Origin: an uncultured Lachnospiraceae bacterium
Lineage (GTDB): Bacteria > Bacillota > Clostridia > Lachnospirales > Lachnospiraceae
Direction: 5' to 3'
Assembly: GCA_947175055.1 (NCBI GenBank)
Contig: CAMWLJ010000018.1
Span: 1 to 43,771 of the forward strand
DNA length: 43,771 nt
How positions within the stretch are numbered: position 1 is the first letter of the stretch; each line of letters starts with the position of its first letter. Positions 3,741-27,478 of the stretch are shown one piece after another. The notes below the pieces were generated by a model. That model was not told the origin of the DNA. It worked only from the letters and a program-made list of their open reading frames with translations, and did no database searches. Both the position numbers and the translations under genes were made by a program.

Positions 3741-5198
3741 TCATGCCCCAAAATATTCATCGAAGATCCGTTTGGCAATAGGTACCGCATAATCACCGCC
3801 ACTTCCTGCACCTTCAATGATGATGGTCACGCACACTTCCGGTTCCTCTGCCGGGGCAAAGCCCGTGAACCAAGCATGAGAATCAGTCTTTATATTATTG
3901 TATTCCGCAGACCCGGTCTTACCGGCCGCAGTATAGGTCAATCCGGATAATTTCGTGCCTGTACCACTTTCCACCACCGCTGTCATCAGTTCCGTCAGCG
4001 CCGCTGCTTCTTCCTCGGAGAGCAGCTTCCTGTACGCGTCAGGGGAAAACTGTTTGATGATATTTCCTTCGTTGTTCTTGACATGATCCACCAGATAAGG
4101 CTTCATGACCGTGCCATTGTTGGCGATCGCACAGGTGATCATATTCAGATGCAGCGGCGTGATCTGGGTAGTCCCCTGGCCGATGGAGGCTTGCAGGATC
4201 TCAGAATCGGAAGTCCCGGCGTCCACTACAAGTCTGCTCTTGTTGTAGGCAAAAGATACCGGCAGTTCCTGATTAAACAAAAGGCTATCCAGCGTACTGC
4301 CCCATTTTGCCCGGTCTAATTGCATGCCGATATTCGCAAACGAAGCGTTGCAGGACTTGGCAAAAGATTTCGTAAAATCCTCGCTGCCATGCACCGATCC
4401 GTGATAGCAGTTGATCGTATCCTGCCCGGCGCTGTATCTGCCATTACACTGGTAGCGGTATTGTCCGTAGCTGTCCGGATTCTCCCGGATATATTCCAGG
4501 GCTGTGACGATCTTGAAAGTGGATCCCGGAGGATACAATCCCTGAGTGGCCCGATTCAAAAGGATAGTACTCTCTTTGTCCTGTATCACCTCCTCCCAGA
4601 TCGCATCTATCTCATTGGGGTCATAGTCCGGTTTGGAGACCATGGCCAGGATCTTGCCCGTGGCCGGCTCGGAGACGATGATCGCTCCTTTATAGACACC
4701 CAGAGACCGGGATGCGATATCCTGCAGACTCACATCCAGAGTGGTCACCACACTGTCTCCCGGATACTTGACACCGGCCACGTCACTGGCTACCTTGTCC
4801 GAGAGTTTGGCATTGGAATTGATCAGGTAATAATTGGCCGCAGCCTCTATGCCGAATCTGCCGTTGGAAGCATATCCCACGGCATGGGCAAAAAGATTTT
4901 CGTAAGGGTAGACCCTTTTCTCAGTACCATCTTCATCTGTCTGCGTCTCGGCCAGTACCTGTCCGCCTGCCGCGTAGATGCTGCCCCGTGTATTCTGTGC
5001 GGCGAAGATCTCCTGCCTGCCATTGTAGCTGTTGTTGATCAGCTCCTGTTTATTTGTGGCGGCATAGTGGCACGTATATCCCATCATCCCCAAAAAACCA
5101 AAAACAAAAAGGTATGTGACCGCAAGAATTTGTTTATTCCGTTTTTTCCTGGAGGGCTTCCTTCTGCGGTGGCCGTCTTCTTTTCTTCCTCTTGACAC
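3741..5198 (-). CDS. Class B penicillin-binding protein (transpeptidase), complete copy
   Basis: 485 residues. A basic cytoplasmic tail (about 1-22) and one membrane helix (23-42) come first, then a short dimerisation domain and the transpeptidase domain. That domain has catalytic Ser226 and Lys229 in SxxK (PPGSTFKI), the SxN motif SCN at 282-284, and KTG at 427-429. It is short for class B, resembling actinobacterial PbpA and clostridial partners of FtsW/RodA. It crosslinks peptidoglycan outside the membrane. The start is GTG 5198, set by GAAGGAG six bases upstream. In the undamaged arrangement it overlaps the ftsW/rodA 3' end by 65 bases. Because of the tandem duplication, this copy now sits behind a truncated ftsW/rodA piece (5134-5517) but keeps its own SD and start. 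Confidence 0.9.
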   Translation of the reverse strand: MSRGRKEDGHRRRKPSRKKRNKQILAVTYLFVFGFLGMMGYTCHYAATNKQELINNSYNGRQEIFAAQNTRGSIYAAGGQVLAETQTDEDGTEKRVYPYENLFAHAVGYASNGRFGIEAAANYYLINSNAKLSDKVASDVAGVKYPGDSVVTTLDVSLQDIASRSLGVYKGAIIVSEPATGKILAMVSKPDYDPNEIDAIWEEVIQDKESTILLNRATQGLYPPGSTFKIVTALEYIRENPDSYGQYRYQCNGRYSAGQDTINCYHGSVHGSEDFTKSFAKSCNASFANIGMQLDRAKWGSTLDSLLFNQELPVSFAYNKSRLVVDAGTSDSEILQASIGQGTTQITPLHLNMITCAIANNGTVMKPYLVDHVKNNEGNIIKQFSPDAYRKLLSEEEAAALTELMTAVVESGTGTKLSGLTYTAAGKTGSAEYNNIKTDSHAWFTGFAPAEEPEVCVTIIIEGAGSGGDYAVPIAKRIFDEYFGA

Positions 5199-5517
5199 GC
5201 TTTGCTCCTTCTTCCTGTCGAATGATAAACAGTCCTTCTATGATAAAGAACATCACCAGTGTGGTCAACACGGAACTGCCGCCATAGCTGATAAACGGCA
5301 ATGTGACACCGGTCATCGGGATAAATTTCGTCCCGCCGCCCACTGTCAGGAACACCTGGAAAATATAGGTGACGCCCAGTCCGAAAGCGATCAACTGGTA
5401 GAACTTGTCCTGAAGCCTGACGGAAATATCCATAAACATGATAAAACAGCTGATACAGACTAAGATCATACACATGGAGAATAAAATCCCCAGCTCTTCC
5501 GCCACCGCCGAGAACAC
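4450..5517. repeat. 1,068-bp tandem direct repeat, copy A
   Basis: This is identical, as far as I compared by eye, to copy B at 5518-6585 (offset exactly 1,068). It holds the last 384 bases of the ftsW/rodA gene and the first about 750 bases of the PBP gene. The outer breakpoints share only the tetranucleotide ACAC (4446-4449, 5514-5517 and 6582-6585). That is a microhomology junction typical of slippage or illegitimate duplication. Confidence 0.95.
5134..5517 (-). pseudogene. Truncated FtsW/RodA C-terminal fragment
   Basis: The last 127 codons of the FtsW/RodA-type gene, identical to the end of the complete gene at 6202-7575. The fragment opens at the duplication junction (5517) at FSAVAEELG and ends in the normal lysine-rich tail. 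It has no ribosome site or authentic start of its own. It is dead coding sequence, though it carries the SD for the full PBP copy within it. Confidence 0.9.
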
Positions 5518-6266
5518 TGGTAGCGGTATTGTCCGTAGCTGTCCGGATTCTCCCGGATATATTCCAGGGCTGTGACGATCTTGAAAGTGGATCCCGGAGG
5601 ATACAATCCCTGAGTGGCCCGATTCAAAAGGATAGTACTCTCTTTGTCCTGTATCACCTCCTCCCAGATCGCATCTATCTCATTGGGGTCATAGTCCGGT
5701 TTGGAGACCATGGCCAGGATCTTGCCCGTGGCCGGCTCGGAGACGATGATCGCTCCTTTATAGACACCCAGAGACCGGGATGCGATATCCTGCAGACTCA
5801 CATCCAGAGTGGTCACCACACTGTCTCCCGGATACTTGACACCGGCCACGTCACTGGCTACCTTGTCCGAGAGTTTGGCATTGGAATTGATCAGGTAATA
5901 ATTGGCCGCAGCCTCTATGCCGAATCTGCCGTTGGAAGCATATCCCACGGCATGGGCAAAAAGATTTTCGTAAGGGTAGACCCTTTTCTCAGTACCATCT
6001 TCATCTGTCTGCGTCTCGGCCAGTACCTGTCCGCCTGCCGCGTAGATGCTGCCCCGTGTATTCTGTGCGGCGAAGATCTCCTGCCTGCCATTGTAGCTGT
6101 TGTTGATCAGCTCCTGTTTATTTGTGGCGGCATAGTGGCACGTATATCCCATCATCCCCAAAAAACCAAAAACAAAAAGGTATGTGACCGCAAGAATTTG
6201 TTTATTCCGTTTTTTCCTGGAGGGCTTCCTTCTGCGGTGGCCGTCTTCTTTTCTTCCTCTTGACAC
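5466..6266 (-). pseudogene. Truncated PBP N-terminal fragment (266 codons)
   Basis: This starts at GTG 6266 with the same GAAGGAG site as the complete gene. It encodes PBP residues 1-251 exactly: the cytoplasmic tail, membrane helix, dimerisation domain and the start of the transpeptidase domain including STFK at 226-229. It then crosses the duplication junction near 5517, reads 15 out-of-frame residues (SRRWRKSWGFYSPCV) and stops. It lacks SCN and KTG, so it cannot be an active transpeptidase. Because start, SD and membrane anchor are intact and it directly follows the complete ftsW/rodA gene, it could be translated as an inactive membrane-bound stub. Confidence 0.85.
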
Positions 6267-6585
6267 GCTTTGCTCCTTCTTCCTGTCGAATGATAAACAG
6301 TCCTTCTATGATAAAGAACATCACCAGTGTGGTCAACACGGAACTGCCGCCATAGCTGATAAACGGCAATGTGACACCGGTCATCGGGATAAATTTCGTC
6401 CCGCCGCCCACTGTCAGGAACACCTGGAAAATATAGGTGACGCCCAGTCCGAAAGCGATCAACTGGTAGAACTTGTCCTGAAGCCTGACGGAAATATCCA
6501 TAAACATGATAAAACAGCTGATACAGACTAAGATCATACACATGGAGAATAAAATCCCCAGCTCTTCCGCCACCGCCGAGAACAC
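5518..6585. repeat. 1,068-bp tandem direct repeat, copy B
   Basis: The second copy of the unit described at 4450-5517. It ends at the ACAC tetranucleotide (6582-6585); beyond it the ftsW/rodA sequence continues uniquely. Lack of visible divergence between the copies points to a very recent event or an assembly artefact. Confidence 0.95.
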
Positions 6586-7575
6586 GAAATCAGCCTCCAC
6601 AAAGGGAATCGATGTGGGAGTGCCCCGAAACAGCCCCAGCCCAAACCAACCGCCGCTGCTGATGGCAAACAAGGACTGTGTGATCTGATAACCGGCATCG
6701 TCAATACAACTGAACGGATCCTTCCAGGCCTGGACACGGACACGCACATGGGAGAAAAACTGGTAAGCAAGCATCGCTGCGAAGCATCCCCCGGCACTGC
6801 CAAGGAGCAGATAGATCCACTTAGACGTAGCGATAAAGACCATCATCACATAAACGATAAAGAAGATTAATGCACTGCCAAGATCTCTGGAGGCGACCAG
6901 GATCAACACATGGATACCCGCCAGCACTGCTGTCAGGATGACCCGTGGCAGATCATGGGATTCATAAAGCGCACTGGCCAGAAAAAAGACAAATACGATC
7001 TTCACAAACTCAGAAGGCTGAAAGGTCACTCCTGCGATAGAATAGGAAATCTTCGAGCCATAAGTCACGGCCCCCAATACGAGCACGATACCCAGTGCTA
7101 TGATCCCCACTGCTGCATAGACCCAGGTTAGGCCTTTCAGAAATCTTAACTTATGGATGAAATAGGGAATCAGCATTCCCGCCACGATCGATACCGTCAC
7201 GATGAAAAACTGCTTGATCGCTTTTTCAAAGGACAGTCTGGTCAGGATCACAAAACCGATACTGAGCAGTAAACACATATTGTTGACGATCAGCCGGTTT
7301 CCCTTGGGATAGACCATACGAAAAAGCATCACCGTGGCAAACAGAAGAATCTGCTGCAACACGTAGAAAAGCAGATATTCTATATTCCCCGTCTCAAAGC
7401 AGATAACAAGAAAGCATGAAAAATGCACCAGAAACATCAACAGATTCTGGCGGATATAGCAGCCGCTCCGGCTCTCTTCATCCTGATAGCGGAACACAAG
7501 AAAACACTCCAGCGTATATAATGCCATAAACAGCGTAATAAAATATTTGGAAAGCTCTGTAATATATATTTCCAT
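6202..7575 (-). CDS. FtsW/RodA/SpoVE (SEDS) family peptidoglycan glycosyltransferase
   Basis: 457 residues with about ten membrane helices. SEDS hallmarks are present: FQPSEFVKI, the SRDLGSALI loop, the long extracellular loop WKDPFSCIDDAGYQITQSL with AISSGGWFGLGLFRG, the EADFVFSAVAEELG segment, and the C-terminal PMTGVTLPFISYGGSS. SEDS proteins polymerise lipid II and pair with a class B PBP, here the gene immediately downstream. The N-terminus is longer and less conserved than in FtsW of model species. The C-terminal tail is very basic (KRVKRKKRRRPPQKEAL) and overlaps the PBP start by 65 bases. The start at ATG 7575 is five bases after the stop of the U32 peptidase gene, so the genes are cotranscribed. 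I cannot say whether it serves division, elongation or sporulation. Confidence 0.92.
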   Translation of the reverse strand: MEIYITELSKYFITLFMALYTLECFLVFRYQDEESRSGCYIRQNLLMFLVHFSCFLVICFETGNIEYLLFYVLQQILLFATVMLFRMVYPKGNRLIVNNMCLLLSIGFVILTRLSFEKAIKQFFIVTVSIVAGMLIPYFIHKLRFLKGLTWVYAAVGIIALGIVLVLGAVTYGSKISYSIAGVTFQPSEFVKIVFVFFLASALYESHDLPRVILTAVLAGIHVLILVASRDLGSALIFFIVYVMMVFIATSKWIYLLLGSAGGCFAAMLAYQFFSHVRVRVQAWKDPFSCIDDAGYQITQSLFAISSGGWFGLGLFRGTPTSIPFVEADFVFSAVAEELGILFSMCMILVCISCFIMFMDISVRLQDKFYQLIAFGLGVTYIFQVFLTVGGGTKFIPMTGVTLPFISYGGSSVLTTLVMFFIIEGLFIIRQEEGAKRVKRKKRRRPPQKEALQEKTE

Positions 7576-7580
7576 AAAAA

Positions 7581-10001
7581 CTATTCCACGCCTCTTTTCA
7601 AATGACCTGTGGTATAGGATTCATCAACGGATCGTCCGACTGTCAGAATCTGTCTGCACTCATCGGCCGTCTCCGTGGTAAAATCATAGCGTCTTACATC
7701 CACTCCGATTCTTTTTACCACATTCTCCTGCTGGTGTAAAGAAAAAGGAACTGAATTATAGATGATATTATAGCAGTGCCTGCAATTTATTTCCACCGGA
7801 AAAATAACACCATAGCGATCTTTTAATTGTAACTGTGATCTTTGGAGCGGCATCATCTGAGGATTCGGTTCCGTTTGATAGATTTCATGGCATTGTTTCG
7901 CTGTCTTGCGAATGCAGTTAGCAGTGATCATCATCGGAATCCGGCCGTAAACGATCATCGTCGTGCGCATACCATTGCGCATGGCATGGTCGGCCAGTTT
8001 CCCCGCCTCTTTGCGGTTCAGCTCCCAGGGCAACGTATATTCTTTACAATAGTGTGCCCAAAAACGCACGCTCTTGGCATTAAAACAGTACAATCCCGCA
8101 TCCGGTACCATATCATAGGAACCTGCCAGCTTCCGGACAAAAGCAGCTTCCTCGTAATTGCGTACCAGAAACCCGCTGATCAGTCGGCCGCCTGCATTAG
8201 AGCCCGCTGCCGTATGCTCCTGTTCTAAAAACCGTATCAGCTGTTCCATATAAGCTCCATCGCCTGCCCGCAGGATATAGGGAAGTGCAAGGTAGTATTC
8301 CGGTGCATCTCCCGTCGTCCCCGCTTCCGCATATCCGGTCCTGTGCTCCGTCATATATGCCGTGATACGCTCATGCTGCGTCATATACAGATCACTGTCA
8401 ATGTAAATTCTGCGGCAAGGAAATTGCAGCGCCACGGCAAACTGGTCACTGGTGGAGACCAGAATATCCACAGGCGGCTCCTTTATAGATTGCATCTCAA
8501 GTGATTGACTGTCGACCAATTCGGTATTGTTGACTGACTTGGTCGGTATATTTTTATTCGTTTTGTACCCGGCGTTCATGCCCTGACGTAAAATATATTG
8601 CCGCTCGTAGGCTTCAACCCCTACCCGCCGCAATTCGTTCAAAGCCCGTACCGGCAGGAAAACATCCTCCGTCATGCAGATTTCACATGTTCTGACAAAG
8701 ACGCATGAATTTCCTGTTTTCAGTAAGCGCTTCCGAATGTCTTCTGCTCGTAAAGGTGCTTTTTGAGCCGCTTCTACGATCTCGCCCTCCACGGAAATAT
8801 CTATCTTCCCGCAAGCGCACTCCTCTTCTGTGCTGTGCATACGTTCAGAATCTTTGCCTGAATGTGTAAGGGTCTCTCGGTTGTCGAAAAGACTGTCTCC
8901 CATGATCTGCAAAACTGCCGGCTTTCCTTTGTCCAGCGTAACTTTCATGGAAACTGCCAGCTTACCCGGCTCTTGCAGGTACTTGGCCCTGATCTGGGCC
9001 AGCAGGTTTTCATCGCTTCCGCCATAGCTTGGTCGGTGGAGTGTGATCATTTCCCGTCCGTTTTTCCGTTCATAATAGCCGGTCTGGATCTCACTGCGGA
9101 TATAAAGACTCTTCAACTTGTCCAGATCTTCTTTGCTGACATGATATGCTTCCGGCCCTTTCTCATAATAAAGATCGATATATTTGCGGTAAAGCGCCGT
9201 GACACCGGCGGCATATTCTACCTTCTTCATGCGGCCTTCTATCTTAAAGGAATCTATTCCGGCTTCGATCAGCTGCGGCAGATAAGAGATAGTGCACATA
9301 TCCTTCAAACTCAACGGAAATGCTGTATCAGGAGATACCGGCTTGCCAGCACCGTCACAGATTTGATACGGCAGCCTGCATGGCTGGGCACATCGTCCTC
9401 TATTCCCGCTTCTGCCGCCAAGTACACTGCTGAAAAGGCATTGGCCTGAGTAGCAATAGCACATGGCTCCATGTACAAAGCATTCTATTTCCAGGCCGGT
9501 CTGCTTCTTGATCCGGCAAACCTCTTCGAGTGACAGTTCACGGGCGGGGACAATGCGCTCTACCCCCTGTTCTTTCAGGAAAGCACATCCTTCCGGTCCG
9601 GTAAGTGTCATCTGTGTACTGGCATGCAGCGCAAGTTCTGGAAAATGATTCCTGATCTGCGTAAGTACACCGATATCCTGCACGATGACTCCATCCAGTC
9701 CGGATTCATAAAAAGGCCGCAGATAAGGGATCAAATCTTCAAATTCGTCGTCTTTTATCAGGGTATTCACCGTAAGATAGATTTTGCGTCCCATAACATG
9801 TGCCACATGGATGACCCGACAGATTTCTTCCGTTGTGAAATTTTCCGCATAGGCCCTGGCGCCAAATTTCTCGCCGCCCAGATAGACTGCGTCGGCTCCC
9901 GCATTGATGGCTCCCAGGAAAGCCTCATAGTTTCCCGCAGGCGCCAGCAATTCGACTTTGGCCTCTGGTCGCTTCTTGTTCTCTGTAGAGGATTCTATCA
10001 T
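7581..10001 (-). CDS. U32 family peptidase
   Basis: 806 residues. The N-terminal half is a U32 barrel beginning KVELLAPAGNYEAFLGAINAGADAVYLGG. The family signature E-C-F-VHGAMC-x-YSGQCLFSS lies at about 170-190, followed by GRSGNRGRCAQPCR. A DUF3656-type insert and a repeated barrel-like C-terminal half follow, as in the long (about 800 aa) Firmicute members. Bacterial U32 proteins are annotated as collagenase-like proteases, but several act in tRNA or rRNA hydroxylation, so protease activity should not be assumed. The conserved cysteines fit an iron-sulphur-dependent role. The start at ATG 10001 has GGAG 11 bases upstream. It is followed after five bases by the ftsW/rodA gene and preceded by the zapA terminator. 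Confidence 0.9.
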   Translation of the reverse strand: MIESSTENKKRPEAKVELLAPAGNYEAFLGAINAGADAVYLGGEKFGARAYAENFTTEEICRVIHVAHVMGRKIYLTVNTLIKDDEFEDLIPYLRPFYESGLDGVIVQDIGVLTQIRNHFPELALHASTQMTLTGPEGCAFLKEQGVERIVPARELSLEEVCRIKKQTGLEIECFVHGAMCYCYSGQCLFSSVLGGRSGNRGRCAQPCRLPYQICDGAGKPVSPDTAFPLSLKDMCTISYLPQLIEAGIDSFKIEGRMKKVEYAAGVTALYRKYIDLYYEKGPEAYHVSKEDLDKLKSLYIRSEIQTGYYERKNGREMITLHRPSYGGSDENLLAQIRAKYLQEPGKLAVSMKVTLDKGKPAVLQIMGDSLFDNRETLTHSGKDSERMHSTEEECACGKIDISVEGEIVEAAQKAPLRAEDIRKRLLKTGNSCVFVRTCEICMTEDVFLPVRALNELRRVGVEAYERQYILRQGMNAGYKTNKNIPTKSVNNTELVDSQSLEMQSIKEPPVDILVSTSDQFAVALQFPCRRIYIDSDLYMTQHERITAYMTEHRTGYAEAGTTGDAPEYYLALPYILRAGDGAYMEQLIRFLEQEHTAAGSNAGGRLISGFLVRNYEEAAFVRKLAGSYDMVPDAGLYCFNAKSVRFWAHYCKEYTLPWELNRKEAGKLADHAMRNGMRTTMIVYGRIPMMITANCIRKTAKQCHEIYQTEPNPQMMPLQRSQLQLKDRYGVIFPVEINCRHCYNIIYNSVPFSLHQQENVVKRIGVDVRRYDFTTETADECRQILTVGRSVDESYTTGHLKRGVE

Positions 10002-10670: not shown

Positions 10671-11537
10671 TCATCTTAAATGAACATCCATCTGCGGATA
10701 AGGTATGGAAATGCCGGCATCATCCAAAGCATATTTGACCTTCTCCGTGATCCGCCATTTGCATTCCCAGTATTCATCATTGTCTGCCCAGCACCGCACA
10801 TTCAGATTGACACTGCTGTCTGCCAGTTCTTCCACAAACACTCTGCGGTCTTTGGAACTGAGAACGGCGGGATCTTCTTCCAGTACTTTCATGATCACTT
10901 CTCTGGCATGCCGGATATCGGCATCATATGAGATACCTACCTTAATGTCCATCCGCCGCTCTGTCAATGTACTCATATTCAAGATGCTGGAATTAGACAA
11001 TGTCCCGTTGGGAATGATGACTACATGATTATTGGGTGTTGACAGTTTGGTGTAGAAGAGCTGGATCTCCTTGACGGTGCCTTCGTGGTCATCATTATCC
11101 ACTTTGATATAATCGTCTACACGGAACGGCTTCAACAAAAGGATCAACACCCCGCCCGCAAAATTTGACAGGCTCCCCTGGATCGCGAGGCCGATCGCCA
11201 CGCCGGCCGAACCAAGAAGCGCCACTACACTCGTCGCATCCAAGCCAAATCCTGAGGCGATCATAAACAACAGCAAAATATACAGGACAGCTTTGATAAA
11301 GGAGTCCAGGAACTGCGTTACACCGATATCCGCATTTCCTTTTTTCAGAGAACGGCGGACGATCCTACGCACCAGTTTAATGACTTGTACACCGAGCAGG
11401 AAAACTACCAGCGCCAGCAAGACTCTGGCCCCGAATCGCAGCGCCTTATCGGGCAGCTGCTGTAAATATTGCTGTATCAATCCTACATCGATCTCTTCTG
11501 CTGTAAGCTGTTCCAATTCCTTCAAGTGATCCTCCAT
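10671..11537 (-). CDS. Small-conductance mechanosensitive channel, MscS family
   Basis: 288 residues from ATG 11537. The start is set by an AGGA site seven bases upstream; an upstream GTG at 11567 lacks an SD. Three membrane helices are visible: about 34-55, 76-97, and the pore helix 104-130 with the G/A-rich face SAGVAIGLAIQGSLSNFAGG. The MscS beta domain (VDDYIKV, then HEGTVKEIQLFYTKLSTPNN, then VVIIPNGTLSNSSI) and the C-terminal alpha/beta part follow. The protein opens under membrane tension to release solutes during hypo-osmotic shock and sits in the inner membrane as a heptamer. It is 67 bases downstream of glgB on the same strand, with no clear terminator between, so it may be cotranscribed with glgB. 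Confidence 0.92.
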   Translation of the reverse strand: MEDHLKELEQLTAEEIDVGLIQQYLQQLPDKALRFGARVLLALVVFLLGVQVIKLVRRIVRRSLKKGNADIGVTQFLDSFIKAVLYILLLFMIASGFGLDATSVVALLGSAGVAIGLAIQGSLSNFAGGVLILLLKPFRVDDYIKVDNDDHEGTVKEIQLFYTKLSTPNNHVVIIPNGTLSNSSILNMSTLTERRMDIKVGISYDADIRHAREVIMKVLEEDPAVLSSKDRRVFVEELADSSVNLNVRCWADNDEYWECKWRITEKVKYALDDAGISIPYPQMDVHLR

Positions 11538-26878: not shown

Positions 26879-27478
26879 TTACTGTGCTGTGAAAGATCTC
26901 TCTGCCAGTACATTGCTATCGGGATCCAAGTAACGTACTGTGTATGTGCATGTACCAGCATCTGCGCTCACTGCCTGATCCAGAGATCCAGCCAGAACTT
27001 CAAAACTTGCAGCGGCATCATCCAAACCAGCCTCAAGCTGCTCTGCAGCACCATCCTGTATCAAAGAGCTGTCTGTGATCATTAAAGATAGGATCAATTC
27101 GTTTCCTTTAGCTTCAACTGTAACAGACATACCCTGCTCTTCATAAGAAGCAACACCTTCTTCAAACTGAGCCATTACTGCCGGATCGCTCAAAAGGCTT
27201 TCTACCGTCAAATCTGAAGATTCTGTTGTCTCAGCCTCTGCTTCTTCATCCGTTGCTTCATCTGCAACTTCGGTTTCTTCATCCGTTGCTTCATCTGCAA
27301 CTTCGGCTTCTTCATCCGCAACATCAGTTTCTTCATCCGCTGCTTCATCTGCAACTTCAGTAGTCTCCTCTGTCTCAGCAGCAGGTGCCGTCTCATCAGA
27401 TCCGCCACAAGCTGTAACGGACAGTGTCATTGCCATGATCGCTGCACATGCAATAAGTTTTAAAGATTTTCTTTTCAT
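26879..27478 (-). CDS. Acidic repeat-bearing lipoprotein
   Basis: 199 residues. A lipoprotein signal peptide MKRKSLKLIACAAIMAMTLS is followed by the lipobox VTAC, with Cys24 as the lipidated residue. Residues about 28-88 are an extremely acidic linker made of near-identical 11-residue units (EVADEATDEET; 33-bp DNA repeats around 27230-27370). Residues about 88-199 form a small globular domain (LTVESLLSDPAVMAQFEEGV, then MSVTVEAKGNELILSLMI). The domain resembles DUF4854-type extracellular domains of Firmicute lipoproteins, though I am not certain. It would be anchored on the outer face of the membrane. The gene has a consensus promoter and its own terminator, so it is monocistronic and probably abundant. 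The function is unknown. Confidence 0.85.
   Translation of the reverse strand: MKRKSLKLIACAAIMAMTLSVTACGGSDETAPAAETEETTEVADEAADEETDVADEEAEVADEATDEETEVADEATDEEAEAETTESSDLTVESLLSDPAVMAQFEEGVASYEEQGMSVTVEAKGNELILSLMITDSSLIQDGAAEQLEAGLDDAAASFEVLAGSLDQAVSADAGTCTYTVRYLDPDSNVLAERSFTAQ

Follow-up and report, generated by a model that had tools for sequence, protein, structure and literature searches.

In the window analysed here (the whole stretch of 43,771 nt, which is the entire contig C18 of an uncultured Lachnospiraceae bacterium genome), the junction between a SEDS gene and a class B PBP gene is written twice, as exact tandem copies. We estimate with a probability of roughly 0.54, based on comparisons of the assembled DNA, that this duplication represents a junction of technical origin or one carried by a minority of molecules, which was unrolled by the assembler. 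Microhomology joining would form the ACAC junction, whether in a molecule of the library or its amplification or within a small fraction of the cells; such a molecule would turn the unit into a loop of the short-read assembly graph, and the assembler might walk this loop twice, by which the unit would be written twice in the consensus. We infer the graph loop, where the molecule with the junction came from, and its rarity in cells. In our best reading, the duplication does not belong to the wall-synthesis pair as a fixed, selected trait.

The repeat and the genes at its junction

Direct comparison of positions 4450–5517 with 5518–6585 revealed 0 mismatches in 1,068 bases, so that the identity claimed by an earlier note on this DNA holds along the whole unit. 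Identity starts at 4446, and the maximal exact repeat is therefore 1,072 bp (the 1,068-bp unit plus a 4-bp overlap), with the first copy at 4446–5517 and the second at 5514–6585, neither being assigned to a strand. Beyond these limits the flanks of the two copies diverge immediately, which agrees with the further claim that the breakpoints have only ACAC in common. This 4-bp microhomology lies at the novel junction (5514–5517, no strand), and the same letters occur at 4446–4449 and 6582–6585.

An exact repeat of 1,072 bp is far beyond chance, and no other exact direct repeat of at least 60 bp was found within the window. The arrangement has the form of a microhomology (short-junction) tandem duplication, that is, direct tandem copies which share 4 bp and are without a long flanking repeat. 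Duplication mediated by long repeats was rejected because there is neither a long flanking repeat nor a second exact repeat of at least 60 bp in the window. Hairpins at the break points were also rejected, since single-strand folds of 60-mers at the left, right and junction sites were no better than those of shuffled sequences (z = 0.60, 1.59, and -0.10, respectively). Elsewhere in the window, imperfect short tandem repeats with periods of 21, 33, and 54 are present at 27234–27374, inside a minus-strand open frame (26879–27478).

All genes around the junction are on the minus strand, in the order U32-family peptidase (7581–10001, upstream of SEDS and outside the duplication), complete SEDS of the FtsW/RodA/SpoVE family (6202–7575, 457 aa), 3'-truncated PBP (5466–6266), 5'-truncated SEDS (5134–5517), and complete class B PBP (3741–5198, 485 aa, GTG start). 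The earlier note describes both genes as complete, with truncated copies of each between them, and this is what we found. The complete SEDS protein matches PF01098 (E-value = 2.3e-57) over residues 103–424, which correspond to positions 11–348 of the 356 in the profile and thus to nearly the full domain. The complete PBP matches PF00905 (E-value = 5.6e-51) and PF21922 (E-value = 2.7e-11). Class B PBPs contain three catalytic motifs named SxxK, SxN, and KTG, which are represented in this protein by STFK at 226, SCN at 282, and KTG at 427.

The truncated PBP copy follows the PBP to residue 251 and continues with 15 out-of-frame residues; it keeps STFK and lacks SCN and KTG, two of the three catalytic motifs. 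The truncated SEDS copy is without the first 330 residues and has 127 aa counted from its first GTG, which sits exactly on the repeat junction. It matches PF01098 only at profile positions 256–348, and we infer that it represents the last membrane helices. Both repeat copies contain the same ribosome-binding region ahead of the PBP start, including the purine-rich AGAAGGAG. In the sequence ATGA, the stop codon that ends the truncated PBP shares bases with an ATG in the frame of the truncated SEDS; we take this overlap as chance. Both outer genes are complete because any tandem duplication across a gene junction gives such a geometry, and their completeness adds no independent evidence.

Search for the junction in relatives and homologues

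The related-genome comparison that the earlier note had called for was carried out at two levels. The nearest named loci belong to Lachnospiraceae MAGs, with PBP identities of 88, 90, and 93% in the closest three. None of the 41 named loci crosses the junction; both halves are present in 39 and one half in 2. A 600-bp query centred on the junction was compared with 77 genomes of the genus, the window's own included. Matches were detected in 73 of the 77, corresponding to 72 of the 76 other genomes, and among the matches listed in these 72 there was no junction crossing: each ends at or before position 300 of the query or starts at or after position 297. The overlap of positions 297–300 arises because four bases are shared at the junction. 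Since the junction is crossed neither by the matches listed in 72 of 76 genomes nor in the 41 loci, the ancestral state was taken as a single unit and the duplication as derived. After this comparison, a conserved or selected arrangement was dropped as the leading reading. No title on duplication of a SEDS/PBP pair was found among the literature matches listed.

A possible natural precedent was considered in UBA7143, in which 142 bp from the 5' end of SEDS occur twice with 91% identity between two N runs (DKWV01000011.1, L055 8387–8955; the same pattern is present in L015). We read this as a scaffolding error because the pieces are split by two N runs and an exact 24-bp repeat is found at the flanks; the doubled piece looks like mis-scaffolded strain variants. 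In another locus (DPJQ01000209.1, L059 4726–7796), three N runs lie within the SEDS-PBP pair, two of which are flanked by exact repeats of 37 and 23 bp. These are gaps inserted despite overlapping flanks.

A protein search with the truncated PBP identified 3,599 homologues, and the best 120 of them were examined. No 6-residue piece of the chimeric tail is present in any of these best 120 of 3,599, in a database clustered at 90% in which a chimeric protein might hide inside a cluster. All but one of the same 120 are at least 397 aa long, as compared with about 229 to 266 aa for the chimera; the one shorter protein is P0008, described below. The absence of the tail from the best 120 of 3,599 homologues was counted in favor of an assembly error. 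Two full-length PBPs are nearly identical to that of the window (2 and 1 differences in 448 residues); the longest contigs of their clusters are 7.8 and 6.0 kb and are uninformative on copy number.

Two other metagenome PBPs were observed in this search. The first (P0008), a 219-aa protein of another lineage (93% identical) with 8 member sequences and one 2.0-kb contig, is terminated by a foreign tail of ~10 residues a few residues ahead of the window's break. A six-frame comparison with the window and the 41 named loci gave no good match to this tail, the best being 7/10 residues and including a stop. If its cause is biological, the tail would indicate a break-prone site, which is a point against an assembly error in the window. 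The second (P0005, longest contig 2.6 kb) has an N-terminal part nearly that of the window and a C-terminal part of another lineage from just after ALEYIRENP, and is either a recombinant or a chimeric contig.

Assembly character and a second duplication

The genome is a draft of 3.47 Mb in 225 contigs with a completeness of 80.9%. We compared contig ends with a sample of the same genome (120 stretches, 2.11 Mb, cut at 20 kb): 10 of 103 ends share exactly 55 bases elsewhere, 3 of 103 share 51, a few share less, and none more, some of the 55- and 51-base cases being both ends of one pair. Exact 55-base end overlaps are the mark of a de Bruijn short-read assembly at k = 55, a value which is a SPAdes default. 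According to excerpts of a published account, metaSPAdes contig ends overlap by n-1, where n is the largest k-mer (PMC7111523), a wording to which 55 is not an exact fit.

In a graph built at k = 55, a 1,072-bp exact repeat is a loop, and the k-mers do not give the number of turns. Assembly of this type is thus unable to count a 1-kb exact repeat from k-mers. In line with this, one source states, in the part consulted, that the assembly graph does not reveal how many times a cycle is traversed (PMC9104695). Excerpts of another describe local repeats in wrong number as a common assembly error and the artificial concatenation of identical sequence, sometimes of hundreds of bases, as a seemingly rare one (PMC7111523). 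The duplication resembles the errors in these excerpts in that identical sequence of hundreds of bases lies head to tail in a short-read-type contig; it differs in having a single extra copy with a 4-bp junction overlap.

Two further repeats were observed in the sampled contigs. The start of contig C39 (L131 1–91) contains an exact 55-base self-match 36 bases on, as when an assembly is halted at a graph loop. In addition, an exact 703-bp direct repeat is present at 11478 and 15115 of L111 (G000:C19:20001-40000), with copies 2.9 kb apart, and is possibly a mobile element or a paralogous segment.

An exact-repeat scan of the 2.11 Mb detected a second exact tandem duplication of 809 bp (an 806-bp unit plus a 3-bp TGG overlap) at about 31097–32711 of contig C8 (G000:C8, equivalent to L101 11097–12711; no strand). 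The duplicated stretch takes in the 3' end of one gene, alpha/beta-hydrolase-like, and the 5' end of the next, acyltransferase/condensation-like (both named from reading the translations), and both outer genes are again complete. A query across its junction matched 14 of 40 relatives. One match in G006 runs ~35 bases past this junction (query 39–338); it was rejected, as the stretch in question aligns as a normal single copy. The presence of the second duplication at unrelated genes implies that the process behind both copies does not single out wall genes.

In controls totalling 1.17 Mb, the longest exact near-tandem repeat measured 69 bp. Three same-genus genomes contributed 0.40 Mb to these controls, and the 41 named loci, which all represent a single conserved neighbourhood, contributed 0.77 Mb. 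A count of two events in 2.15 Mb versus none in 1.17 Mb of relatives is no significant excess, and the window was chosen for having one. The scan misses copies that lie across the borders of the 20-kb stretches as well as the 1.3 Mb of the genome outside the sample.

Together, the k = 55-like fragmented assembly, the second duplication, and the lack of any relative crossing the junction shift the weight somewhat toward an assembly error. SPAdes-type assemblers resolve loops partly by coverage, and such decisions would favor a real junction of high frequency and speak against an error. The alternative drawn in the earlier note, a fresh genome change or an assembly error, named the right two options, with the second slightly likelier; its emphasis on the wall-synthesis pair and on selection found no support. 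More generally, where a contig assembled from short metagenome reads contains an exact tandem copy of a kilobase, the truncated genes that result may be false, and such a copy needs to be marked as suspect before biology is read from it.

Origin of the junction and competing explanations

An overlap of 4 bp is shorter than joining by k-mers requires, and the junction was therefore probably present in the sequenced molecules. In 400,000 simulated random tandem joins on this genome, overlaps of at least 3 bp occurred in 5.9% and of at least 4 bp in 2.0%, and the simulated chance that both events have at least 3 bp is 0.0035 (n = 2 events only). This hints at joining guided by microhomology, either in vivo or via template switching in the library. 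The excess of microhomology over random joining at both junctions would be equally compatible with events in vivo and with an in vitro template switch, and was weighed as a point against an assembly error.

The strongest competing explanation is that the dominant strain really carries a tandem duplication of very recent date, which arose at the 4-bp microhomology by slippage or template switching; we regard it as quite possible, at somewhat less than even odds. As part of the same explanation, the duplication would be neutral or carry a small cost, and recombination between the copies would be expected to collapse it. Exact copies with a clean 4-bp junction are what such an event would leave, both events share more bases at the junction (4 and 3 bp) than random joining gives, and absence from relatives fits recency. 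Precedents for microhomology junctions in bacteria are found in the consulted parts of two papers: junction microhomology of 3 to 30 bp in rearranged amplicons of E. coli (PMC3161906), and, in both E. coli and B. subtilis, a selected tandem duplication whose 1.6-kb unit is bordered by 9 bp of microhomology (PMC11111574). The excerpts of the latter also state that microhomology was not strictly required for those tandem duplications (PMC11111574). The duplication in the window resembles these cases in its direct-order copy, few shared bases, and lack of any long flanking repeat found; the published ones came from selection experiments or were confirmed in the laboratory, whereas ours is read from an assembled sequence (PMC3161906, PMC11111574, excerpts).

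On the other hand, without a common cause one would not expect a single genome to have two unstable duplications that arose independently and are both close to fixation. Moreover, in the excerpted Salmonella data, 5 of 8 tested duplication junctions were verified, all with at least 11 bp, and junctions with 7 bp, 9 bp, and one with 17 bp were unverified (PMC3411829). Short-homology junctions are treated in the same excerpts as hard to separate from chimeric reads (PMC3411829). If real, the duplication would be one more fresh, unstable tandem duplication caught ahead of its collapse.

It is improbable that the assembler read a small circular DNA, or an excised molecule of the unit, as a tandem copy. 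The head-to-tail junction of a circle would be identical to that of a tandem copy; however, profile search matched the frames of the unit to the SEDS and PBP families only, with no replication or mobility family, and there is no reason for two such circles.

Retention of the duplication by selection, in which the truncated PBP and SEDS copies, or changed spacing and dosage, would alter the activity of the pair, appears very unlikely. Coupled translation could persist through the ribosome-binding region in both copies and the ATGA overlap, and a truncated PBP that retained its membrane anchor and dimerisation domain could perhaps compete for SEDS. However, the unit is bounded by a 4-bp microhomology that falls within both genes, two of three catalytic motifs are missing from the truncated PBP, the arrangement was found in no relative examined (listed matches and 41 loci), the second duplication hits unrelated genes, and other SEDS and PBP genes are present in the genome. 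The suggestion of possible selection thus found no support, the truncated copies being without any pointer to a function. Least likely of all, a real high-frequency duplication might act as a reversible switch, in which a catalytically dead, membrane-anchored PBP fragment, translated from the SEDS operon, would bind SEDS until recombination between the 1-kb copies restored the normal operon.

The standing of this pair in the genome was assessed by profile search. Five matches to PF01098 were detected, two on the window contig, two stronger ones on C4 and C20, and one on C35 that covers half of the profile. PF00905 also has five matches: two on the window contig (one being the truncated copy), two on C4, and one on C20. 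Judged by the NCBIfam cut-offs, the window SEDS scores too low for ftsW, rodA, or spoVE, and the window PBP too low for PBP2. With at least two further SEDS and three further transpeptidase-domain matches, the window pair is one of several, and its earlier description as a key wall-synthesis pair is not supported. Like other pairs of a SEDS glycosyltransferase and a class B PBP, the two genes are adjacent, with overlapping or nearly overlapping frames as in relatives; the genes themselves are ordinary, and the duplicated junction alone is unusual.
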